Source: Nitrosophilus labii (lineage in GTDB: Bacteria > Campylobacterota > Campylobacteria > Campylobacterales > Nitratiruptoraceae). From it: 64,000 bases of DNA. Where the stretch lies: assembly GCF_014466985.1 (NCBI RefSeq), contig NZ_AP022826.1, positions 1,178,001-1,242,000 of the forward strand, in the 5' to 3' direction. A program made the position numbers and the translations under genes. The notes under the pieces were generated by a model. It was given only the letters and a program-made list of their open reading frames with translations. It was not told where the DNA came from and ran no database searches. This document shows, piece by piece, positions 8,421-39,711 of the stretch (the stretch's first letter is position 1; the number at the start of each line of letters is the position of its first letter).

Positions 8421-9000
8421 TTAAACTGGTTTCCGTTTTAGATTATAAGCTGCTGCAAATAAATAGATACATTGACTATTTTTATGAAGACCTATAAATT
8501 TTGTTTGAATATAATTCATTTGTCTTTTAATAAATGCAAATGGTAGTTCAACTATTGCTCTAATTTTAGTAAATTTTTTATTGTTTTTAATCTGTTTTAT
8601 AATCCCTTTAGTATCTGTAGTAATATAAATTTTATATCCATAATATTTATACCTTCTTTTAGAAATACAGCTTGCCCCTTTATCTATAGATTTATTAGTG
8701 ATAATATTACCTTTATCATCTCTCTTGCGTTTAGGCTCTGACGTATGAATCAGTGTAGCATCAACTATTATTATTTCATTAAGAATTAAAACTTTTTTAA
8801 TCATTTTATTTTTTACTTCCTCAAAAATTGCCTCAAATATATTAGCCTTTATCAAAGCATTTCGAAATTTACAGATTGTGGTCTCATCTGGAATAATATC
8901 ATCCTCTGTAATATCTAAAAACTTTACTAAATGAAATTCTGTCATGGATTAACTCTTCTGTCATTGGAACGCTAAATCCATATCAGTTTTGTAAAAAATT
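8421..9000 (-). pseudogene. Decayed IS5-family transposase
   Basis: Minus-strand translation shows IS5-type transposase motifs in the right order: FLDITEDDIIPDETTICKFR, then IIVDATLIHTS (first catalytic Asp), then YYGYKIYITTDTKGII. It then jumps directly to the C-terminal VELPFAFIKRQMN and YLFAAAYNLKR. The segment that should hold the second catalytic Asp (YADKGY-like) is missing, so there is an internal deletion. Upstream of 8945 another frame continues the N-terminal part (PMTEELIHDRISFS), so there is also a frameshift. The element is therefore dead. I could not define its terminal inverted repeats. It sits between capsule genes and next to a glycosyltransferase fragment. Confidence 0.8.
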
Positions 9001-24370: not shown

Positions 24371-25336
24371 ATGAAAAAATTTTTTCTATTTTTTATCTTT
24401 TTTACCTCTTTTATCTTTGCAAATATTATAGACATTTATAGAGAAAAAGGCTCGGAAGCGGCTATAGATATATTGGATAAGGAACTGCAAAAGATTCAAT
24501 ACTGGCAAAAAGTTATAGACGACAAAGATATACGTTTTGGATATTATAGCAATATGGACTATATACTTGTTTGCAATAAAAAAAGAAAAAAACTCGATAT
24601 ATACAAAATAGACAATAAAGAACTTAAAAATATCAAAACTATAAAAGTGATTGTAGGCAAAAACAGCGGCGATAAAGTAAAAGAGGGTGATCTGCGTACA
24701 CCGGTAGGCGTCTATAGGCTCATTAGAAAACTAACAAATCTTGACGACTACTACGGTCCTTTTGCCTTTGTAACCACGTATCCAAATCTTTACGACAAGA
24801 TAAGAGGCAAAAACGGATATGGGATCTGGATACACGGAATGCCTGAAAATTGCGAAAGAGAACCAGATACTAAAGGGTGCATAGCAATGGAAAACGAAGA
24901 GCTTAAAAAACTTGAAAATATGCTAGATCTTAAAAAGACAATCCTACTCATCAACGAAGATAAACCAGACATCGCAAATAAAGAGGAGATTGTTCAGATT
25001 TTATCTATGCTATATAAATGGAGATACGCCTGGAAAAATAGTGACATAAATAGTTACCTACAATTTTACCATCCAAAATTTGTCAGATTTGACGGCAAAA
25101 ATCTCAAAGAGTTTTCCGAAATGAAAAAAAGAATTTTTTCATTAAAGAAAGGACAAAAAATCGAAATAGTTTTTACAAATATCAATATCATTCCCTATCA
25201 AACGCCGGATAACGAAAAGATATATAGAGTAAACTTTCATGAAAAATACCGCTCAAAAAGTTACAGTTTTGAAGGGAACAAAGAGCTTTATGTTGTAAAA
25301 ACTTCAAACAACTGGAAAATCTTGGTAGAGAGATAG
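24371..25336 (+). CDS. csd6: Periplasmic L,D-carboxypeptidase, Csd6/Pgp2-like
   Basis: The 321-residue product has a signal peptide (MKKFFLFFIFFTSFIFA), a YkuD-type catalytic domain and a C-terminal NTF2-like domain (about residues 212-321, WRYAWKNSDINSYLQFYHPKF). This three-part layout is that of Helicobacter Csd6 and Campylobacter Pgp2, which trim peptidoglycan tetrapeptides to tripeptides and control helical shape. The active site is visible as H155 (WIHGMP) and C170 (TKGCIAM). The L,D-carboxypeptidase rather than transpeptidase activity is inferred from the domain layout and the csd4-like neighbour two bases downstream. The start has a strong GGAGG site. Confidence 0.85.
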   Translation: MKKFFLFFIFFTSFIFANIIDIYREKGSEAAIDILDKELQKIQYWQKVIDDKDIRFGYYSNMDYILVCNKKRKKLDIYKIDNKELKNIKTIKVIVGKNSGDKVKEGDLRTPVGVYRLIRKLTNLDDYYGPFAFVTTYPNLYDKIRGKNGYGIWIHGMPENCEREPDTKGCIAMENEELKKLENMLDLKKTILLINEDKPDIANKEEIVQILSMLYKWRYAWKNSDINSYLQFYHPKFVRFDGKNLKEFSEMKKRIFSLKKGQKIEIVFTNINIIPYQTPDNEKIYRVNFHEKYRSKSYSFEGNKELYVVKTSNNWKILVER

Positions 25337-26627: not shown

Positions 26628-27623
26628 TCAATCTATCTTAATCCTCTTAAACTCATAAAAAGCTGGTTTTGGTTTTCCGTTTGCCTTTTTGATACCGAAA
26701 AACTTTTCGGCTTTGCCAAAATAACCATTATGCTTAGGAAAATCAATAAAATGAAAAAGATTTACCCCCATTAAGTCAGAACTAGCTCTAAAAAGCGGCA
26801 AAAGTTTTTTAAACTCCCTCACAACCTTTTTTTGGATTATTTCACCGTTTTTCCCGTAGGAAGAAATCGCTAAATAGGCCAAAAAAGTCGGTTTTTTATA
26901 GGTTTTATGTAGATATGTGGCAAAAGCCAACGCTCTTAAAGGAGCATCTAAAATCTCTTCTGTAGAGTTTTTATTTAACGCTCTCATCTCTTGAAATGCT
27001 ATAAAATCGGCTATTTTGGCACTGTATAACATGGAAGGTTTATACAACTTCCAATTTTTTTCATCCCAAATAACCGAATAGTCTCCAAAATCGCCTAAAC
27101 ATATACCAACCAAGGCTTCCGGGTTCTCTTTTTTTATCAAAAAAATGGAGTTTATCTGTAAAAGGTCAAACTCCCTACTATTTACTATACCGTTTTCATT
27201 AAACTCCGGATTTAGGATAACTATCTTTTTACCTTTAATCTTTTGGAGATATTGTGAAAATCTTTTCAAAGTTTGAAAGTACTCTTTTTTATGTTTTTTT
27301 ACGAAGGATGGAGAAATATCATCTGCAAACCAGTAGAATATAAAAATAGGCACATAACCTTTTTGAACCAATTTGCCGTTTATCTCTTTTTCAGAGTACC
27401 ACCCCTCTTTCCAGTCTCTTGTTATCCACATAGATACAGCGTTAACGTTTGGTAACTCCTTTTTTAAAAGAGTGGCAATATTTTTTCTTTTATCTATAGA
27501 GCACTGTTTGAAATAAGAGGCTCCATATCTATTTTCGCATACTTTAAAGCCGCCTACTCCTAAAACAAACTCCGAAGCAACTAAGTTTAAAGATATTAGC
27601 GTTAAATAAACAAATATTCTCAT
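26628..27623 (-). CDS. Secreted TIM-barrel-like glycoside hydrolase candidate
   Basis: The 331-residue product has a signal peptide (MRIFVYLTLISLNLVAS) and alternating strand/helix segments that suggest a single (beta/alpha)8 domain. Strand-end acidic residues are visible in SMWITRDWKEGWY, VILNPEFNENG, ICLGDFGDYS and FIAFQEMRAL. The NPEFNENG stretch is a candidate acid/base site. I do not recognise the family. It ends the seven-gene exopolysaccharide operon, directly after the deacetylase. PelA of the Pel system carries a TIM-barrel hydrolase and a deacetylase in one chain, so this protein may be the hydrolase half encoded separately. The function is inferred from fold pattern and position. 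Confidence 0.6.
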   Translation of the reverse strand: MRIFVYLTLISLNLVASEFVLGVGGFKVCENRYGASYFKQCSIDKRKNIATLLKKELPNVNAVSMWITRDWKEGWYSEKEINGKLVQKGYVPIFIFYWFADDISPSFVKKHKKEYFQTLKRFSQYLQKIKGKKIVILNPEFNENGIVNSREFDLLQINSIFLIKKENPEALVGICLGDFGDYSVIWDEKNWKLYKPSMLYSAKIADFIAFQEMRALNKNSTEEILDAPLRALAFATYLHKTYKKPTFLAYLAISSYGKNGEIIQKKVVREFKKLLPLFRASSDLMGVNLFHFIDFPKHNGYFGKAEKFFGIKKANGKPKPAFYEFKRIKID

Positions 27624-27628
27624 CGATT

Positions 27629-29428
27629 TTACTCATAAGGGATTATTAAAGTTATCACTGAATTTGGTTTTAGTTCTTTGACTCTTATATCACTGAACTT
27701 CTCTTTTTTATCTCTTTTAATCTCTTCTACTTTAATATTTAGTATTTCAGAGCTGATTTTACCAATCTTTTTAAGATTGTGCCAATAGAGTCTAAACGTA
27801 AAATTTTTTACAGAAGTATCGTTTCTATTTTCTATGTTTACAAATATATTTTTTAGATTTTTTTTATAAAAAAGATCAATATTTTTTAACTGTCTGGCCC
27901 TTATCGCCAAATCTCTACCCTTTAACGGTTTGATATCTTTTCTTGTTTGTAAATATTTAAAAAATTTTTCAACTATATTGATATTGTTTTTATAACTTAA
28001 CAAATGAGTGTGGATACTTAAAGTATAAAGGACATTAAAAGAGGTTAAAAGCTCCGTCTCATAAATAATCTGATTTAAGATAGCATCTTTATCCCAATCA
28101 AGATTTATAAGATATATATAATCATCCGTACCGTGTCTAGGCAGAGTTATCAAACCCGGAATCTCCTCTTTTGGTAGTAGATAATCTTTTGAGCGCTCCA
28201 TAGTATATAAATAACCCGATTCTCTTAACCAATAGATCATCTTTTCATCAATCTCTTCTCGAGGCGGTCTAAACCCGTAAACTTTCTCTCCGGTAATATC
28301 TTCTAAAACTTTTTTAGAATAAGCTATCTCTTTTTCTACTTTTTTTTCGTTTTCCCCTGATATTTTAGTATGAGAGTAGCTGTGGGAGCCAATCTCTATA
28401 TGAGAAAAGGCAGCTACTTCTTTAGTTATATCCGAATACTGCTCGGCCAAGTTTGCTACGCAAAAAAGAGTAGTATCGATGCCGTACTTTTGAGCTAGAG
28501 TAGCATAACGTTTTAAATTTTCATATTTATACTCGGTATCTTCGGATATAAATATGGCCTTTTTAGTGTCTAGATATGGATACTTTGCCAATGAAACGGG
28601 CTCGTTTAAATAGTTTGTTATATTTTTCATCAATAACTCAAATTCATTTAACGGCATATCTAAAAAAGAGTATAACGGAAAACTAAAGTATATCCAACTC
28701 CCTTTACCGTACAATCCGTGCCAAACTATACCAGCTTGCTTCATAGGAACCTTTTTATTGTCGAACATAGGTGTAGATGTAACAGCCCAGTTAGTTAGTA
28801 CCGCATCTGGAGTATTCTCTTTTGATTCAAAAAGGGGTATAGAGTCGTATAGTATCAAATCAAATCTTTTAGCATCTTCATTAGATAACATTATAGGCGA
28901 TAAAATTTTTGGTATAAAAAATAGCCCTTTTTTGTTTTTTACGTTTTTAATATATCTCAATCCGGTTATAGCTTCAATCAATTTACTGCCTTGATAAATC
29001 TTTTTGTTTTGAAAATAGGCAAAATGGTAGTTAAAAAGTAGATTTCCCCCTCTTTTTAAAAAGTTAAGTATTGCCCCGCTACTCTCTTTTGACAAGGCAA
29101 ATATATCTAAAGCTAAAATAGTACTCGTTGCCGGCAAACTATCTACATTCGACTCTCTTATAACATCATACTTGACCCCTATCTTTTCTAGACGTCTCTT
29201 AAACTTACTTAAACGATCTAAATAACTATCTTTATTATAACCCGTATCTTGCAAAAACTTAAGAGTCTCATCAGATACCAAAATATAAACATTTGAGCAC
29301 TTCTGCGTCGAAAACAATATATTTGACGATATTTTCGTATCGGGAAGTAGATTATAAAAAATAGTGCCGGATATTATAATAAACAAAAATATATAAAAAA
29401 AAACAAATGGGCCATATCGGTTATACAC
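27629..29428 (-). CDS. Membrane-anchored polysaccharide deacetylase with GATase-like domain
   Basis: The product (about 599 residues) has one N-terminal membrane helix and then a periplasmic region. First comes a Rossmann/GATase-like domain (about 45-270, with GGNLLFNYHFAYF and GKGSWIYFSFPLY). A NodB deacetylase domain follows (about 290-480) with FISEDTEY (metal Asp), the zinc motif HSYSH, RPPREE, and a late SIHTHLL His. A C-terminal beta-sandwich ends the chain. It should remove acetyl groups from a secreted amino-sugar polymer. The GATase-like plus NodB plus beta-sandwich order resembles PelA without its hydrolase. The GTG at 29428 is chosen because GGGAG lies 6 bases upstream; it falls just after the stop of the small membrane protein gene. 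Confidence 0.82.
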   Translation of the reverse strand: MYNRYGPFVFFYIFLFIIISGTIFYNLLPDTKISSNILFSTQKCSNVYILVSDETLKFLQDTGYNKDSYLDRLSKFKRRLEKIGVKYDVIRESNVDSLPATSTILALDIFALSKESSGAILNFLKRGGNLLFNYHFAYFQNKKIYQGSKLIEAITGLRYIKNVKNKKGLFFIPKILSPIMLSNEDAKRFDLILYDSIPLFESKENTPDAVLTNWAVTSTPMFDNKKVPMKQAGIVWHGLYGKGSWIYFSFPLYSFLDMPLNEFELLMKNITNYLNEPVSLAKYPYLDTKKAIFISEDTEYKYENLKRYATLAQKYGIDTTLFCVANLAEQYSDITKEVAAFSHIEIGSHSYSHTKISGENEKKVEKEIAYSKKVLEDITGEKVYGFRPPREEIDEKMIYWLRESGYLYTMERSKDYLLPKEEIPGLITLPRHGTDDYIYLINLDWDKDAILNQIIYETELLTSFNVLYTLSIHTHLLSYKNNINIVEKFFKYLQTRKDIKPLKGRDLAIRARQLKNIDLFYKKNLKNIFVNIENRNDTSVKNFTFRLYWHNLKKIGKISSEILNIKVEEIKRDKKEKFSDIRVKELKPNSVITLIIPYE

Positions 29429-29438
29429 TTTTTGCTCC

Positions 29439-29621
29439 CTACTCAAAATATACATATTCATCGCCTACTTGCTTAAGTGCCTCCTCGTACGTAATCCCTT
29501 TGGATAAGTTTTTTTTCTTTTTTTCTCTGGCTTTATATAGAAAATAGGCGATAACACCAAAGACCAATGTCATTATCGTTATAATTAAAATCAGTACAGA
29601 CAAAAAACCGAGTAGATTCAT
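29439..29621 (-). CDS. 60-residue single-span membrane protein of the polysaccharide operon
   Basis: The product has one membrane helix (about residues 4-28), a Lys-rich patch (KAREKKKKNLSK) that should face the cytoplasm, and a short acidic tail ending ALKQVGDEYVYFE. The start overlaps the synthase stop codon (ATGA), and the stop is directly followed by the ribosome site of the deacetylase gene, so it is a real coupled gene. Its place right after the GT2 synthase suggests a small synthase partner, like PgaD in position but half its size and with one helix instead of two. I do not recognise the family. Confidence 0.72.
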   Translation of the reverse strand: MNLLGFLSVLILIITIMTLVFGVIAYFLYKAREKKKKNLSKGITYEEALKQVGDEYVYFE

Positions 29622-30931
29622 AAATTTCCTTTTCTTTCAAGTTTTCCCCAGCTCATCTCTATACCGTACCACTCCTCAATAGTCGCCAATATCTTTGAAA
29701 TATTTATAATCGTAATAAAAAAAAGCCGATAAAAAACAGCATAAAAAACTAAAGAGAGCTTTTCACCGGTTATAAGTACACAATACAATGCTCCTGCCAT
29801 ATCTAAAATAGTAAACATTGCCCACCAAAAAAAGATTAGCATACTTACACCGGATATCAAAGCCAAATATATCATAAAAATATTTGCCCAAATATCCATA
29901 AACGGCCAAAAAACCGCTTCAAAAAGCATATACCAAAGCACAAATGAAACTGAGGGAGATTTTTTAAAGTTCCAAAGCAGTTTCCTGTGCTTTCTAATGG
30001 ATTGCAATATACCCCTTGTCCATCTGTAGCGCTGTTTTATAAGATCAAGTAGATGTTCTGGTACTTCAGTATATGCTATCGCATCTGATTCAAACTCTAT
30101 CTTATAACCATTTGCAATCAGTTTAAGAGTCACATCGCAATCTTCCGCAAATGTATCGTCATCATACATGCCAACTTCTATCAGTGCGCTCTTTCGAAAC
30201 ATTCCTATAGGACCCGGAATAATATTGACAAGCTTCAAAAAAGCTTGTCCGTTTCTTACCATATTAAGTCCTTCTATATACTCAAGGGCTTGGAGTTTGG
30301 TAAGAAGACTATTTTGATTGCTAACATAAACCGATCCCGCAACAGCCGCAATCTCTTCATCGTTAAAATAAGCAGCCATCAACAATACGGCGTTTTTATC
30401 CAGTTTTGAATCCGCATCTACTACCATTATCAATTCTCCGCTTGCATGCTCTATCCCGAAATTTATAGCATTCGCTTTGCCTCCGTTTTTCTTCCTATAA
30501 ACCTTCAAACTTCTGCTACTCTTTGTAAACTCTAACTTCTTTGCTTTAACATAAGTTCTATCTTTTGAACCGTCATCAATAACCAATATCTCCAAATTTG
30601 GATATGTCTGCTCAATTAACGATTGTAACGACTTTTCTATCACAACCTCCTCGTTAAAAGCTGGCACTATTATAGTAACTCTTTTAAGTTCACCCTTTTG
30701 TGGTTTATCTTCTTCATCTGCACTCTTTTGAATAGTCTTTAATATTGAGAAAAAAAGCAATAACATATATCTCAATATTACTAGCGTGGTAAAAAAAAGA
30801 ACAATACCAACACCTATCTGAACAAAAATATTTTGTATATGATAAAAATAGTTATAATAAAAATATAGTAAACTACCAAGAGCTAAAATTAAAAAGAGGC
30901 TTAAAAAGATTACTATAAAACCCTTTATCAC
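29618..30931 (-). CDS. Processive GT2 polysaccharide synthase (PgaC-like)
   Basis: The product (about 437 residues) has two N-terminal membrane helices, a cytoplasmic GT2 domain and about four C-terminal membrane segments. The catalytic motifs are complete: IIVPAFNEE, VIDDGSKD, VVDADSKLD, FAEDCDVTLK and QRYRWTRG (the QxxRW motif of processive enzymes). It should polymerise and extrude a beta-linked polymer, most like poly-N-acetylglucosamine because a deacetylase follows; the sugar is inferred. The GTG at 30931 is preferred since it overlaps the exporter stop as GTGA with AAGGA upstream, whereas an ATG 27 bases earlier lacks a site. No PilZ domain is present. Confidence 0.88.
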   Translation of the reverse strand: MIKGFIVIFLSLFLILALGSLLYFYYNYFYHIQNIFVQIGVGIVLFFTTLVILRYMLLLFFSILKTIQKSADEEDKPQKGELKRVTIIVPAFNEEVVIEKSLQSLIEQTYPNLEILVIDDGSKDRTYVKAKKLEFTKSSRSLKVYRKKNGGKANAINFGIEHASGELIMVVDADSKLDKNAVLLMAAYFNDEEIAAVAGSVYVSNQNSLLTKLQALEYIEGLNMVRNGQAFLKLVNIIPGPIGMFRKSALIEVGMYDDDTFAEDCDVTLKLIANGYKIEFESDAIAYTEVPEHLLDLIKQRYRWTRGILQSIRKHRKLLWNFKKSPSVSFVLWYMLFEAVFWPFMDIWANIFMIYLALISGVSMLIFFWWAMFTILDMAGALYCVLITGEKLSLVFYAVFYRLFFITIINISKILATIEEWYGIEMSWGKLERKGNL

Positions 30932-33900
30932 CACATCTTCCTTACATGCAAACCACACTCTAAACTCTGATATCCCGTTTGCGTACCAGAGGTAGAGCTA
31001 TTGCTAAAATCGCACCCTATCTCCGCAAAATATTTTATAGTTGAATCACTCTTTAACCAAAATCCGGCTTTATAAAGCAAAGTCTCTTCCCAAAAACTGT
31101 AACCCAACGCCCCTTTTACTTGAAGAGTTAACTTTTTATTTATCGGATAATAGGCTTTTATACCGATTAGATTGTTGTCAATTTTATCAGGTGAGTAATA
31201 ACAAGAAGTTGTTTTGTCGTTAAATTGATACCATCCGGATAGATAGTATATAGAGTCTAACTTACCAAAACTCTTATCATAAAACTCATAATCAAATTGG
31301 GGAGTTAAAACCCTATTATCATCTTCAATATCTTCATAAGCCAAAGACCACCATAATCCTCTCTTATGACTTAACTGTCTATAACCGCTTACTTCACCCT
31401 TTACTCTCATAAGCTCTTTTGAACAACAAGTTCTTCTTGAATAGACAAGATTTTTTCTATCTAGTTTAAAAGTTAAACTATTTCCCAAAAAAAGAGTATT
31501 ATAGCCCAAACTCCACCCGGTTTTACTGTTTGAGCCGCTTTTATCAAAAACAACATCTCCAAAATAGTTCTCTTTTTTTAAACCTAATCCATAGTAGTTA
31601 CCGCTACAACTCTCATCGTTATCAGTTAGATTATACCCCTTTAAAAAGGCGTAAATCCAAAAAGTATTGTTTATATTTTTTGAAATCTTTAAACTATGGG
31701 TTAACATATCTATATCCTGATTGTCGTGAAAATAGTCTAAACCGCCCTCTATCTCCCAATCATTACTATCTATATTTTTCTCTTTTTTTACATACATTTT
31801 GGGTACGACTTTTTTCTTAGTTAATTTTACCGGTTCCAAATGAGTGATGTTTAATACTTTTTCCTCCTGTTTAGGATTTTTTTTAACATCTTTATCCAAC
31901 TCTATACTTTTACCTTTTACATTCTCTTTTTTATCACCTTTTTTTTTCCTCTTTTCAATCTCTTTTAGACGCTCTTTTATGTAAAACTCCAAACTGCTAT
32001 CTTTTTTGTACGGAGTATATTTTCCCGGCTTCCAACTCTCTTTTAATATTTTGCAACGATAATCCTCACACTTAATGAGCAGAGTTTTATACCCTTCATC
32101 TTTTTTAATCTTTGAAGCGTACACTTGATAAAACTTAACTTCATATAGGTTTCCCGCTTTAGAAACCAAAAGCGGATCGTAAATAGATACGGAAACAAAT
32201 CCATTTTTTCTAAAAAGAGCCTCTTTTTTCAATCTCCAAGCCGTATTTTTTGCAATTTTATCATCGTAAAAATTTATATACTCTTTTATATCCATCGACT
32301 CCCAAGCTTTTTTCCACTCCTCTAAAAATTTTTTAATAAAAGGAAGAACCGGTTTTGGAACCTCTTTTATAAGTTTCTTATAAATCTTTTCGGCTTTTTT
32401 TATATCTCCCATATTTTGTAGGTTATACGCATAATGATACTCTATCAAGGGAGTCTTTTTAATCCAAAAAAGTAGATAAAACTCTCCCGCTGCTTTTGCG
32501 TAATCTTTAGAAAACTCCAACGCGTAAGCATACTTCTCTCTTGCCTCGTAATCTTCCGGTTCAAGCGTTAAATAACTCTTATAGTAGTTAGCCGCACTCT
32601 CATAAAGATTTGCAAAGTAAACCCTATCTGCCATTGCCAAAATCTTTTTGCTCCTATTTTGAAAATATTCATCGATAGTAGCGGAACTTTTTGAAGTTAC
32701 AAATCTTGGGTTGACTTTCAATATCTTCGCTTTTAATAGAGTGGCTTCTTTATAATCTGGATACTTTTTTAAAAGATCGTTTAAAGCTAACAGCGCTTCA
32801 TTATTAAATCCATTCCAGTAGTATCGTAGGGCTAGTTGATAAAAAGACTCTTTTGTATTTAAATAGTTAGCGTAATACTCCCAGTAGCCAAACCCTTTAT
32901 AATACTCTTTCAGCTCCAAGTAAATATCGCCGAGAGTTTTATATATTTCTATTTTTTCCGGATGCAGTTTTAGATACTTTTCATAATAGTTTGCCGCTTT
33001 TTTATACTCTTTTATCATATAATAGTAATCGGCCAATTTTAAGATAATTGTCTCATTTGTTGGATCTTTAGCCAACTCTTTCTCATACTTTTTTATAAGT
33101 GGTTTAACCTCACCTTTAATAACCAATAAAGACTCTTTAACCTCTTCATCATTAGGATTGTTTTTTAGTATAGCTTCAAAAATCTCTTTCGCTTTACCTT
33201 TTTGATCTCTCCACATATAGACATATCCTAACATCTTTTTTGCTTCATATTTTTGTTTTTCAGTTCCGTTAGCGTAAACATCAGATAGAAAATGAACGGC
33301 TCTATCATAATCTCCCTGCCAAGCAAGTATCTTGCCAAATAGAAGTTTGGCTCTATTGTCGTCACTCTCTTGAAACTTCGCTAAAAGTTTCATAGCCTCT
33401 TTATTATCGCCTCTCCAAGAGAGTATCTTTGCTAGAAACAATATCGCGTTTTTATCGGTAGGATTCTCTTTTATGTATCCTTTTATAAGAGAGATAGCTT
33501 TTTTAGGATCTTCGTTATAGAGTATATAAGCTAAAGTTTGCATGTTTTCAAATGATGGATCTTTTTTATATTTATCCCACAAATTTTGCAAATACTTTCT
33601 TTCAAGTTTATCGATTTTCTCTTGGTACTTTAAGATCAAATCGCTCTTTTTTATACGCTTTAAAGAGTAAAGTATCTTTTTTGCCTGCTCAATTTCACCA
33701 ATGGCTATATAGATATCTAAAAGTTTTTCACCATACTCCAAATCTCCCGTAGCTTGAAAAAGATATTGATAGTACTTTTTTGCACACTTAAATCTCGATA
33801 AGTAGTAGCAGTCTGCCGCTTTTATCTCAAAAAAATCCAAACTTTTTTTATCTTTTACTTTTTTCAAAACTTTTAAAGAAAGGTTATACTCTCCTTCCCA

Positions 33901-34329
33901 CATAGCAACTCTCGCTATTTTAATATAAGAGGAGTCTTTAAATAGATTCTCTTTTGAAGTATAAAGAAGATTAAATTTTTTATAAAAATTCAAAAGCTCT
34001 TTATATCTGCTTTTTCGGTATAACTCTTCAATTAAATTATCTAAATTTTTATGATTTTGTATAAACGAAGATATATATTCGGCCGCATTTATCTTTTGTA
34101 ACATACTTTTTGCATATTTGTTGGTAGGCTCAACTTTTAAAATCTCTTTCAATAATTTTTTTGCCTCTTCATACTGATTTTTTTCTAAAAAATATCTTGC
34201 TAAAACCAATCTGTTTTCTACATCTTTAGGATTATTTGATACTTTTTTCATCAATGTTGAAACATCTAAATCAAGAGCATAGCCACTAGTAAAAAATATC
34301 AAAAAAACCAAAGTTAATATCTTTTTCAT
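30928..34329 (-). CDS. TPR and beta-barrel outer-membrane polysaccharide exporter (PgaA/PelB-like)
   Basis: The 1133-residue product has a signal peptide (MKKILTLVFLIFFTSGYA), a long array of TPR units (about residues 30-660, for example YEEAKKLLKEILKVEPTN and YKKAANYYEKYLKLHPE), then an NTF2-like domain (about 668-770, EEWKKAWESMDIKEYINFYD). A Lys-rich linker follows, and a C-terminal barrel of about 16 strands (about 870-1133) with alternating aromatic strands. TPR plus barrel is the architecture of PgaA, PelB and BcsC. The NTF2-like domain resembles the one in the Csd6-like protein at 24371-25336 and is not a known part of those exporters as far as I know. Stop-start overlaps couple it to both neighbours. 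Confidence 0.85.
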   Translation of the reverse strand: MKKILTLVFLIFFTSGYALDLDVSTLMKKVSNNPKDVENRLVLARYFLEKNQYEEAKKLLKEILKVEPTNKYAKSMLQKINAAEYISSFIQNHKNLDNLIEELYRKSRYKELLNFYKKFNLLYTSKENLFKDSSYIKIARVAMWEGEYNLSLKVLKKVKDKKSLDFFEIKAADCYYLSRFKCAKKYYQYLFQATGDLEYGEKLLDIYIAIGEIEQAKKILYSLKRIKKSDLILKYQEKIDKLERKYLQNLWDKYKKDPSFENMQTLAYILYNEDPKKAISLIKGYIKENPTDKNAILFLAKILSWRGDNKEAMKLLAKFQESDDNRAKLLFGKILAWQGDYDRAVHFLSDVYANGTEKQKYEAKKMLGYVYMWRDQKGKAKEIFEAILKNNPNDEEVKESLLVIKGEVKPLIKKYEKELAKDPTNETIILKLADYYYMIKEYKKAANYYEKYLKLHPEKIEIYKTLGDIYLELKEYYKGFGYWEYYANYLNTKESFYQLALRYYWNGFNNEALLALNDLLKKYPDYKEATLLKAKILKVNPRFVTSKSSATIDEYFQNRSKKILAMADRVYFANLYESAANYYKSYLTLEPEDYEAREKYAYALEFSKDYAKAAGEFYLLFWIKKTPLIEYHYAYNLQNMGDIKKAEKIYKKLIKEVPKPVLPFIKKFLEEWKKAWESMDIKEYINFYDDKIAKNTAWRLKKEALFRKNGFVSVSIYDPLLVSKAGNLYEVKFYQVYASKIKKDEGYKTLLIKCEDYRCKILKESWKPGKYTPYKKDSSLEFYIKERLKEIEKRKKKGDKKENVKGKSIELDKDVKKNPKQEEKVLNITHLEPVKLTKKKVVPKMYVKKEKNIDSNDWEIEGGLDYFHDNQDIDMLTHSLKISKNINNTFWIYAFLKGYNLTDNDESCSGNYYGLGLKKENYFGDVVFDKSGSNSKTGWSLGYNTLFLGNSLTFKLDRKNLVYSRRTCCSKELMRVKGEVSGYRQLSHKRGLWWSLAYEDIEDDNRVLTPQFDYEFYDKSFGKLDSIYYLSGWYQFNDKTTSCYYSPDKIDNNLIGIKAYYPINKKLTLQVKGALGYSFWEETLLYKAGFWLKSDSTIKYFAEIGCDFSNSSTSGTQTGYQSLECGLHVRKMW

Positions 34330-35726
34330 TTTTTACATATCTCCTCTTTATGTTCTTTCCATATTGTTGTATCGATTATATGTTCTGTTTCAAAAAAGTT
34401 CTCTTTAGTTTCGTCAGTAAAAGCTTTCATTTTGTCTATTACCGTTTTGGCTATCTCCTTTCTGAGACTTATCAAACAAAATATAACTCTTTTCTCATCA
34501 TAAAACATTATATCTTTCTCTCTTATTTTTGAAAACAGAATCTCTTTGGAAATATTAGTTTTTGCCGAAATTATGCTAGCGTAGATTCTATTGTGCCAAA
34601 AACCGTCGATTATATTGCAAAAATGTTGTAAATTTTTTATAATCTCCATATTGTTTGGAAGCTGCTGTATTAAAGTAGTATAAAAATGGTTTTGTATAAT
34701 TCTCTCCAATGTCAAAATGTACTCTTCAAATATAAAATTTTTAGAAAATATCTCGTAACAACCGGCATTTATCGCATTCATTTTATCACTTTGCCTAACA
34801 TATTCTTTGTTTACTATGTAAATAAGTTTAGATCTTAAATTGTTATTTTTTATGATAGTGCAAACCTCAAGATCGTAACTCTCATCAGGCGGATTGTAAA
34901 TGATCAGATCTGGTCCCTCAAGTATCTTCTGGATAGTCTCTGAAAGCGATGAAGCTGTATCAAAAATATAACTCTCTCGATCAAATAAGAATCTATGTAA
35001 ATTTATTAGTTCCGTATCTTGCGAAATGAGCAAAATCTTTTTTAAAGGTTTTTCTGCTTGAGTTTCTTGTGTAACAAGATTTGACGTTTCATTTTCTTTT
35101 AAAGGTTTTAGTTTTAGAGTTTTATTTTCTAATTGAAAAAGATATCTTAAATGTTGTACAGGAAAAATTGAACTTTGAACTTTTATCTCAATACGATTCT
35201 CTTTTTCTATATATAGATTCATATCTGTATAATTTTCTAAAATCTCATTAATAAAGTTGTTTGGATTATTGGAAGCAGATGAAGTTATTAAAAGTTTTAT
35301 ATCATACAACTCTTTAATCTCTATAAGCTCCTCTATAAACTGCTCCGCATCATCTCTCTCTTGTATTTCAAAAAAAAGATCAAGTCTATGAAAAAGTAGT
35401 GTTTTACAGCTATCTTTTTCGATAACCCTTTTTATATCCTCTATCATAAATTTATATCCAAATCTTCTTTTTAGCTCTTTGAAATTCTCTTTTAAACAGA
35501 GGATATTCATCGAATTTATGATATTAGCAACTTTTTTATCTCCCAAATACGCAATCGCACTTAATCTTTTTAACATCAAGGATTTTGGAAAAGATGAAAA
35601 CATAACTAAACTGTTATCATAAAAAATATTTGCTGTTATAAACAGAGAAAACGTCAATTTACCACTTTTGTTTTCACCTTCTATTGAAACAAGTTCCGAT
35701 TTTTTTATTGCATTCTCAATAGTCAT
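34326..35726 (-). CDS. RecA-like/pseudo-receiver/degenerate GGDEF protein with BcsE-like layout
   Basis: The product (about 466 residues) has three parts. Residues 1-190 look RecA/KaiC-like with a weak P-loop (GENKSGKLT) and a CKTLLFHRLDLFF strand. Residues about 232-350 form a receiver fold (KKILLISQDTE, then DLIIYNPP) in which the phospho-acceptor Asp is replaced by Asn, so it is a pseudo-receiver. The tail keeps the pattern of a GGDEF domain (KIREKDIMFYDEKRVIFCLI) but lacks the GGDEF residues. BcsE, a c-di-GMP-binding cellulose regulator, has the same order of domains, so a regulatory subunit of the synthase is a reasonable inference. I see no RxGD site. The second ATG (35726) is preferred because AAGGA precedes it. 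Confidence 0.65.
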   Translation of the reverse strand: MTIENAIKKSELVSIEGENKSGKLTFSLFITANIFYDNSLVMFSSFPKSLMLKRLSAIAYLGDKKVANIINSMNILCLKENFKELKRRFGYKFMIEDIKRVIEKDSCKTLLFHRLDLFFEIQERDDAEQFIEELIEIKELYDIKLLITSSASNNPNNFINEILENYTDMNLYIEKENRIEIKVQSSIFPVQHLRYLFQLENKTLKLKPLKENETSNLVTQETQAEKPLKKILLISQDTELINLHRFLFDRESYIFDTASSLSETIQKILEGPDLIIYNPPDESYDLEVCTIIKNNNLRSKLIYIVNKEYVRQSDKMNAINAGCYEIFSKNFIFEEYILTLERIIQNHFYTTLIQQLPNNMEIIKNLQHFCNIIDGFWHNRIYASIISAKTNISKEILFSKIREKDIMFYDEKRVIFCLISLRKEIAKTVIDKMKAFTDETKENFFETEHIIDTTIWKEHKEEICKK

Positions 35727-37611
35727 AACCATTCCTTAATAATTCTTCAAAGGTTTTTATTAAAAATTTATCCCCTTTTTGTTTTTGCAATCTAAGCATC
35801 AAATCTAGGGCAACTTTATCTTTTGGACAGATCTCTAAAACCCTCCACAAATATTTTTCCGAATTTTTAAGATCCTTTAACTCAAAATAGCTTTTTGCCA
35901 ATACTAGATAAAGTTTTGATGAGTTTTTATACTTTGTAGATAAGAGTAGATGGTTTGCACTTTTAATTGCCTCTTTATACTTCTTCAATCGATATAGTGT
36001 TTTAACTTTCCAAAAATGATCTTCGTCTTTATCGCCAATTTCAATAGCCTTTTGAAAAAATTTTAACGCCTTTAAATACATCTTTTGTTTATAAAATATC
36101 TCTCCATATAGAGTATATGGCCTTGAGTCTACTTCGTTGATTGTTGAAATACTCTTTTTGATAAAAACTGTAGCAAGCAGCAAATCATTCTCTTCAAAGG
36201 CTTTTTTAGCTTTCAAGTAGTTTGTAAGAGACAATATTTTTGTTCTCTTTGGCATACTAAAAAGTTTTTTCTCTTCGGCTTGAACCAAAAAGTACCATAT
36301 TCCGTCGTCTAAAGAGTTAAATCTAACCTCTTTTTTTGAACTAGAAATAACTCTACCAGGCAATGTAAAAAATTTATCCCTACTTGCTATAACTCTAAAA
36401 CTTTTATAAGGACTTATCCAGCTAAGAGTAATAACGCCTTCTTTATTTCTATTTATTCTAAGACCTTCAACAGCTTTTGGTAATGGACTCTTTTTAAAGC
36501 CTTTTTGAGTGTAGATAACTCCTTCATTTTGTTTTACCTTTAAATCTTTTGAAGCTACCGCACCTTTATATACGCTAACGGAAGTCTCTTTCTCATCAAC
36601 GATCGTCTCAAATTCGGTTCCAAGATTTTGCCAAACACTTTTTTTAGTATAAACCGTTACCGGATTTGAGGCGGTCGTTAGATAAAGATTGGCTTTATCT
36701 AAGGATATCTCTGTTCTCGTTTTTGTATTGAAAAGATTTTTGTAAGCAAAAATTTCGTATCTATCGTTTTTATAAAAACGTGCGACCAAATCATTTTCCA
36801 GATGCAAAACTATCTGTTCGCCGGATGCTTTTACATCAATCTTTTGAGGTACTAGACAGTAGTAATAGTCTAAACCAAAAAGTACCGCTACACTTGCAGC
36901 GGCCAAAATGGCAGATAGGCGTTTTATTTTTATCTGTTTTGATATATTTGGAAGATAGATGTAAAACGTTGTTCCAACATCCGGTTTGCTTTGAAGTTCA
37001 AGCCTGCCTCCAAAACTCTCGATTACCCGTTTGCTCATAGTAAGGCCAAGACCTGTTCCGGAATTTTTCTCAGATGTGCTAAAGTATTTATCAAAGATTT
37101 TGACCGCTTCCTCTTGCGTTAACCCTTTTCCGGTATCCTCTATCTTCAATAACCACCACGATTTGTATTTTACGATAGATATAGCTACTTTTCCATCTTT
37201 TTTGTTGTATTTGACCGCGTTATGAACTATATTGAAAAGAGCCTTTTTAAGCCAAAGTCTATTGGCTATAATCTTAGTTTCATTAGAATCGCTAAATATG
37301 AAAAGTTTAACTTTTTGGACTTGTAAATCCGGTTCAAGCTCATATTTAATTTCGTAAAAAAGCTTAACAATATCTATAGACTCTTGTTTTAATCTTCTGT
37401 TTTGTTTAAATCGCTGCAACTCTATAAAATCTTGAAGCATATCTATTGTTTTCTCTACAGATAATAGCGCATTTTTTAGAAGTTTCTCTTTTTCTAACCG
37501 ATCTTCAATCACATTGTTTATAAGTAGGCTTAAGCTAAAACGTATAGTTCCGAGTTTATTTTTAATGTCGTGATAAAAAGCGCTGGCAAAAGATTGAGTT
37601 TTTTTCAGCAC
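35716..37611 (-). CDS. Histidine kinase with C-terminal periplasmic FecR/TPR region
   Basis: The 631-residue product starts directly with the dimerisation/phospho-acceptor helix (H14 in FYHDIKNKLG). It is followed by a complete HATPase domain (NIVHNAVKYN, IEDTGKGLT, GTGLGLTMSK). A single membrane helix follows at about 236-255, then a FecR-like domain (about 260-385, with WQNLGTEFETIVDEKETSVSVYKGA), a beta-rich segment and C-terminal TPR units (about 480-631). Kinase-first order is the reverse of ordinary sensor kinases. Its likely partner is the OmpR-type regulator at 39064. It starts with GTG, preceded by AAGGT, and heads the seven-gene polysaccharide operon. Confidence 0.85.
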   Translation of the reverse strand: MLKKTQSFASAFYHDIKNKLGTIRFSLSLLINNVIEDRLEKEKLLKNALLSVEKTIDMLQDFIELQRFKQNRRLKQESIDIVKLFYEIKYELEPDLQVQKVKLFIFSDSNETKIIANRLWLKKALFNIVHNAVKYNKKDGKVAISIVKYKSWWLLKIEDTGKGLTQEEAVKIFDKYFSTSEKNSGTGLGLTMSKRVIESFGGRLELQSKPDVGTTFYIYLPNISKQIKIKRLSAILAAASVAVLFGLDYYYCLVPQKIDVKASGEQIVLHLENDLVARFYKNDRYEIFAYKNLFNTKTRTEISLDKANLYLTTASNPVTVYTKKSVWQNLGTEFETIVDEKETSVSVYKGAVASKDLKVKQNEGVIYTQKGFKKSPLPKAVEGLRINRNKEGVITLSWISPYKSFRVIASRDKFFTLPGRVISSSKKEVRFNSLDDGIWYFLVQAEEKKLFSMPKRTKILSLTNYLKAKKAFEENDLLLATVFIKKSISTINEVDSRPYTLYGEIFYKQKMYLKALKFFQKAIEIGDKDEDHFWKVKTLYRLKKYKEAIKSANHLLLSTKYKNSSKLYLVLAKSYFELKDLKNSEKYLWRVLEICPKDKVALDLMLRLQKQKGDKFLIKTFEELLRNGYDY

Positions 37612-39063: not shown

Positions 39064-39711
39064 TTATAATATAGCGTATCCGATCTCTCGTTTGGATACA
39101 ATGACATTTGATTCTTGTAGTTTTTTTCTTAGTCTATTAACTAGAGCGGCAACGGTATTGTTTGGAACACTCTCTTCCCAAACATACTCTGCAATAGTTT
39201 GCGGGGACAAAAATCTTCCTTTATTTCGAAGCAAAAATTCTAACAGTTTTGTTTCAGTGCGGCTTAAAACAACAGGAGTGTAGGAGTTATAAAGCATTCT
39301 TGCGCTCCAATCGTAATAATATCTATCTCCAAAATGTTGGAGATTTTTTTGCAATAGTTTAAAAATACGATTTACTCTTAAAAGAAGCTCCTCCGGATTG
39401 AAAGGTTTTTTTATAAAATCTTCAGCTCCAAGTTCAAAAGAGGTTCTGATATTTTCTATTTCAGTATGTCCGGAAATTATTAAAATCTTTGACTCTTCTT
39501 TTATTTGAGGAAAAGACTTAAGCATTTTAAGAGCGTTTCCATCCGGTAAAGATATATCCAAAATTATCAAATCTATAGGCTTTATAGAATCTATTTGTTT
39601 TATAAACATATCAATAGTATCAAAATTATATACCGTATGTCCATTTGCTTCAAGCAATAGTTTTATAGCGTAACTTAACCCAGCTTCATCTTCTAGTATT
39701 ACAATTTTCAT
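39064..39711 (-). CDS. OmpR/PhoB-type response regulator
   Basis: The 215-residue product has an intact receiver domain (acidic pair E7/D8, phospho-acceptor D52 in LIILDISLPDG, Lys in FIKKPF). A winged-helix DNA-binding domain follows (VVLSRTETKLLEFLLRNKGRFLSP, then NTVAALVNRLRKKL). It probably regulates the polysaccharide and OmpA genes downstream and is phosphorylated by the kinase at 35716-37611; that pairing rests only on proximity. No other kinase lies in the window. Confidence 0.9.
   Translation of the reverse strand: MKIVILEDEAGLSYAIKLLLEANGHTVYNFDTIDMFIKQIDSIKPIDLIILDISLPDGNALKMLKSFPQIKEESKILIISGHTEIENIRTSFELGAEDFIKKPFNPEELLLRVNRIFKLLQKNLQHFGDRYYYDWSARMLYNSYTPVVLSRTETKLLEFLLRNKGRFLSPQTIAEYVWEESVPNNTVAALVNRLRKKLQESNVIVSKREIGYAIL

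Follow-up and report, generated by a model that had tools for sequence, protein, structure and literature searches.

How might a polysaccharide synthase be placed under the control of c-di-GMP when its operon encodes none of the usual receptors? The question is raised by a locus of Nitrosophilus labii, a species of Campylobacterota with a genome of 2.09 Mb, in which one gene directly precedes a set of genes for polysaccharide synthesis and export. In gut bacteria, the export of cellulose is tuned by BcsE, a sensor of c-di-GMP. Here, we describe why the product of this gene, referred to below as the candidate, is probably a cytosolic receptor through which a PNAG-like, synthase-dependent system of polysaccharide export responds to c-di-GMP, organized and working like BcsE, a reading to which we give a probability of about 0.7. 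We refer to the whole stretch of DNA analyzed (64,000 nucleotides, contig NZ_AP022826.1, positions 1,178,001 to 1,242,000) as "the window".

The gene, its operon, and its distribution

The candidate, placed at 34326–35726 by the first-pass annotation, is encoded by a single ORF on the minus strand (Table 1). The proteins of most relatives begin at what is the third residue of the window ORF, and 35726 is therefore probably the true start. Residue numbers given here nevertheless count from the first ATG, at 35732.

Table 1. Features of the window discussed in the text, in window coordinates; residues are those of the 468-aa form of the candidate
Feature	Position	Strand	Remarks
Candidate BcsE-like regulator, ORF	34326..35732	(-)	468 aa from first ATG; 466 aa from 35726 (likelier start)
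KaiC/RecA-like degenerate NTPase domain, residues 1-225	35058..35732	(-)	Pfam/NCBIfam KaiC matches of single family members
Receiver fold, residues 231-350	34683..35042	(-)	Asn280 at phospho-acceptor position
RQSD, residues 313-316, in receiver	34785..34796	(-)	Invariant RxxD, aligned with BcsE R306ATD
GGDEF-like tail, residues 352-468	34329..34679	(-)	GGDEF residues absent
REKD, residues 404-407, in tail	34512..34523	(-)	Invariant RxxD, aligned with BcsE R415TGD and genuine GGDEF I-sites
TPR and outer-membrane barrel exporter, 1133 aa	30928..34329	(-)	Overlaps candidate by 4 bases
GT2 synthase	29618..30958	(-)	Best NCBIfam match PgaC_IcaA, 204 bits (cut-off 422)
Polysaccharide deacetylase, 610 aa, N-terminal hydrophobic stretch	27629..29461	(-)	
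Conserved protein, 331 aa, last operon gene	26628..27623	(-)	Without Pfam or NCBIfam match
Histidine kinase with FecR and TPR parts	35716..37611	(-)	Overlaps candidate by 17 bases
OmpR-type response regulator	39064..39711	(-)	

Relatives were sought in Campylobacterota and, beyond this phylum, in one narrow scan of genome contigs and in plasmids and viral contigs; the viral contigs, scanned with the candidate family and with BcsE, contained none. The nearest named relative of the candidate protein, with 89% identity, comes from a Campylobacterales MAG. The resulting set of 13 sequences reaches down to about 25% identity and comprises 11 full-length proteins, that of the window included, and two shorter proteins that consist of the receiver and GGDEF-like parts. 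These two standalone proteins (L027:9106-9903, minus strand, and L028:5726-6532, plus strand) carry both RxxD motifs and are encoded among housekeeping genes, away from the polysaccharide operon.

The candidate gene directly precedes the TPR/barrel exporter gene in all 11 loci, followed by the genes for the GT2 synthase and the deacetylase; the 331-aa protein comes next in nine of them. A kinase and a response regulator are encoded upstream of the candidate in seven loci, and an adjacent kinase is absent from the other four. The adjoining GT2 matches PgaC_IcaA best, which confirms the first-pass view that the gene sits beside a synthase other than that of BcsE. The operon recalls the PgaC-PgaD system of PNAG synthesis in that it combines a PgaC_IcaA-type GT2 with a deacetylase and a TPR/barrel exporter. 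However, the GT2 scores below the equivalog cut-off, the host genome lacks PgaD, and the regulatory place is taken by a BcsE-like protein. When the deacetylase was searched for separately, it turned up in 10 of 397 genomes, and these are precisely the genomes that have the full-length candidate; they belong to eight genera and four families. Plasmids searched with the deacetylase gave no match.

The host genome has 24 GGDEF and four PilZ matches. A search of the same genome found neither PgaD nor BcsB (PF03170), and the GT2 of the operon has no PilZ match. Because the genome encodes c-di-GMP enzymes but the operon lacks the usual receptors (BcsB and PgaD), the candidate is the obvious protein to consider and the best candidate for the c-di-GMP receptor of the operon.

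Several features of the surrounding genes deserve mention in their own right. In two of the genomes (L023:5570-8721 and L026:1563-5014), the exporter is split, with one ORF for its TPR part and another for its barrel part. A Cds6_C NTF2-like domain is common to the exporter (residues 665-764) and to an L,D-transpeptidase-like protein encoded at 24371-25336 (Pfam E 2e-12 and 1.5e-35, respectively). The 331-aa protein has dozens of invariant residues, and weaker relatives of it lie inside larger ORFs of other Campylobacterota. From inspection of the translations by eye, positions 3177-23300 of the window were assigned to a polysaccharide region of the capsule type (KpsC/KpsS-like, UDP-sugar genes, ABC exporter, KpsD/KpsE-like), which contains a transposase remnant at 8421-8945.

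Domain organization of the candidate

The central part of the chain is the most firmly placed: by sequence similarity, the presence of a receiver domain of the PF00072 type is certain. Receivers in the PDB were matched with an E value of 7e-5 by the single sequence, and 1MVO with an E value of 1e-7 by the family profile; an hhalign comparison with a response-regulator alignment gave P 1.6e-15. The domain is degenerate. At the phospho-acceptor position, where Asp stands in almost every canonical receiver compared, this family has Asn280 (window protein) or a variety of residues, N, D, Q, and H among them (relatives), and the acidic pair of receivers is absent. With the phospho-acceptor variable and the acidic pair missing, a plain response-regulator reading of the candidate was rejected.

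The assignments of the two flanking parts are supported, less strongly than that of the receiver. For the N-terminal part, one member of the candidate family has a KaiC match in Pfam (E 2.4e-5) and a second, the relative in L025, has one in NCBIfam (E 6.9e-5); the window protein itself has no such match in either collection. A weak PDB alignment of this part to KaiC matches the P-loop. The GxxxxGK pattern of the P-loop is kept, and G24 and K25 are invariant in the relatives, with Leu (as in the window protein) or Met rather than Ser/Thr as the next residue. The position of the Walker B Asp is occupied by an invariant His115. Since both the P-loop Ser/Thr and the Walker B Asp are replaced, hydrolysis of NTP by this domain is unlikely. 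The domain resembles KaiC, which individual family members match at E about 1e-5, and differs from it in having His for the Walker B Asp and a P-loop Ser/Thr displaced by one residue.

The last 117 residues contain no GG(D/E)EF motif and have no match to the Pfam GGDEF model (PF00990). A profile of this tail nonetheless matches the genome's own GGDEF domains: none of 200 shuffles aligned as well, and the alignment covers the I-site and keeps it in register. The architecture proposed in the first-pass annotation thus stands. It had described a RecA-like start, a receiver with Asp changed to Asn, and a GGDEF-shaped tail devoid of GGDEF residues, in the order found in BcsE; the receiver and its Asn280 are borne out strongly, and the sequence evidence for the KaiC-like start and the GGDEF-like tail is weaker. 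AlphaFold models of the candidate, built from the window protein together with one relative, had too few sequences to draw on and are unusable, with a mean pLDDT of 38 for the full chain and 40 for the receiver and GGDEF-like parts.

Relation to BcsE

Escherichia coli BcsE binds an intercalated c-di-GMP dimer at a composite site, formed by R306ATD of its receiver-like domain and R415TGD of its GGDEF-like domain (PMC11470070). The profile alignment of the candidate family with this protein places residues 313/316 on 306/309 and residues 404/407 on 415/418. When all eight motif columns are masked, the receiver pair still falls on BcsE 306/309, and the tail pair shifts by a single residue. The candidate resembles BcsE (type II cellulose secretion; PF10995; PDB 6TJ0, 6YBB, 9FNN) in the order of its degenerate NTPase, receiver, and GGDEF domains, in having an RxxD in each of the latter two, and in being encoded with an exopolysaccharide synthase system. 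It differs in that it escapes the BcsE Pfam model, belongs to a genome without BcsB, accompanies a PgaC/IcaA-like synthase, keeps the P-loop glycine and lysine, and has a receiver nearer to ordinary ones.

The Pfam model PF10995 found nothing in the host genome, while the E. coli control was positive, and at E ≤ 10 no match to it is listed for any of the 11 family members. Comparison of profiles with nine BcsE sequences gave one collinear alignment of 329 columns (P 0.016), with P values of 0.001–0.02 overall. The N-terminal part, the receiver and GGDEF-like parts together, and the GGDEF-like part each scored above every one of 300 column shuffles in this comparison. As column shuffles alone are too lenient a null, real unrelated alignments were added as controls. 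Against these, the margin in favor of BcsE is small for the N-terminal part (28.8, comparable to 24.0 for an unrelated control), nil for the receiver, and clear only for the GGDEF-like part. Ordinary receivers (by the P value given above) are a far better match to the receiver of the candidate than is that of BcsE, for which the score is at background level. Because the scores of the N-terminal part and the receiver lie so near those of real controls, the claim of common descent is weakened; on the sequences compared, descent of the candidate and BcsE from one ancestor is plausible but unproven.

The strongest competing explanation concerns this point of descent and leaves the mechanism untouched. 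Domains of the KaiC-like, receiver, and GGDEF types may have been fused and have decayed independently within Campylobacterota, producing a c-di-GMP receptor that is like BcsE without being its homologue as a whole; we consider this somewhat short of an even bet. The better fit of the receiver to ordinary receivers speaks for it, as do a tail that scores GGDEF domains as well as BcsE (25.2 versus 25.6), the existence of standalone relatives with only the last two domains, and the conserved GK of the P-loop, where BcsE has a severely divergent Walker A. It accounts less readily for a three-domain order shared with BcsE, for both RxxD motifs standing in register within one collinear alignment, and for a gap-free match that runs from receiver beta-4 through the RxxD and alpha-5.

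Predicted c-di-GMP binding and proposed mode of action

Within the receiver and GGDEF-like region, the 13 sequences share only eight invariant columns: F250, R313, D316, E343, F350, Y351, R404, and D407. Half of these belong to the two RxxD motifs, whose R and D are present in 13/13. R404-E-K-D407 stands at the I-site position of real GGDEF domains (IREKDIMF in the candidate, LREDDIFIRYGGEEF in a GGDEF protein of the same genome), and R313-Q-S-D316 at the start of receiver helix alpha-4. Among canonical receivers, Asp is common at the position of D316 and Arg occurs at that of R313 in about 3 of 19, which makes the receiver motif the weaker half of the pair. In the nine BcsE sequences, R306, R415, and D418 are invariant and D309 is variable.

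The first-pass annotation had seen no RxGD motif and suggested a possible change or loss of ligand binding. With regard to the I-site, the former is mistaken, since REKD and RQSD are both RxxD motifs. The latter is contradicted by the sequence evidence, in that the I-site RxxD is among the most conserved residues and a second RxxD lies at the BcsE R306-D309 position. On motif grounds, then, the proposal that the candidate works like BcsE is well supported, and binding of c-di-GMP is predicted. PelD is comparable in that its degenerate GGDEF domain serves a synthase-dependent polysaccharide and binds c-di-GMP via the RxxD of an I-site (PMC8461298), although PelD combines this domain with transmembrane helices and a GAF domain instead of NTPase and receiver domains.

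We infer the following sequence of events. c-di-GMP would be supplied by other enzymes. The catalytically dead receiver and GGDEF-like domains would each contribute one RxxD to a joint pocket, where c-di-GMP, probably as a dimer, would bridge the two and close the molecule. The KaiC/RecA-like domain, probably no longer hydrolysing NTP, would serve assembly. The closed form, kept in assemblies by this domain, would then activate, stabilize, or help assemble the inner-membrane GT2 synthase, which would act with neither a PilZ domain of its own nor a PgaD partner. BcsE reaches its synthase complex through BcsQ, BcsR, and BcsF (PMC11470070). Genes for these three were not seen in the candidate's operon, and direct contact with the synthase or another partner must therefore be assumed.

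Alternatively, c-di-GMP binding may have been lost, leaving a protein that only assembles or scaffolds, or that acts via protein partners such as the neighboring kinase. The active sites of the GGDEF, receiver, and NTPase domains are all degenerate, Glu343 and Phe350-Tyr351 are conserved as strongly as the RxxD motifs, and binding by the candidate is itself a prediction. Yet invariance of both the R and the D of the I-site is hard to explain without a ligand, and the genome encodes GGDEF enzymes; we regard the loss as unlikely.

If the candidate is indeed a BcsE-like receptor, the compound c-di-GMP pocket of BcsE is used outside cellulose, and Campylobacterota have a c-di-GMP receptor for exopolysaccharide control. 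With one regulator, one synthase, and no BcsQ, BcsR, or BcsF seen among its genes, the operon would also be a simpler setting for studying how such a sensor acts on a synthase. Full-text searches of one literature collection for BcsE-like proteins in the control of Campylobacterota exopolysaccharides found only papers on Bcs and on c-di-GMP in general. Sensing of the BcsE type, through two I-sites, may be no speciality of enterobacterial-type cellulose secretion but a means of controlling synthase-dependent polysaccharides that is older or has evolved repeatedly, and that here takes the place of PgaD in a PNAG-like system; we judge this reading to be about as likely as not.

A last possibility, that the candidate is the phosphorylation-controlled response-regulator partner of the adjacent histidine kinase, draws on the 17-base overlap of the two genes in the window and their adjacency in 7/11 loci, and is highly improbable given the variable phospho-acceptor, the missing acidic pair, a normal response regulator gene nearby (Table 1), and four loci without an adjacent kinase. 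The histidine kinase itself has an unusual order of parts, with the kinase core N-terminal and the FecR and TPR parts following it.
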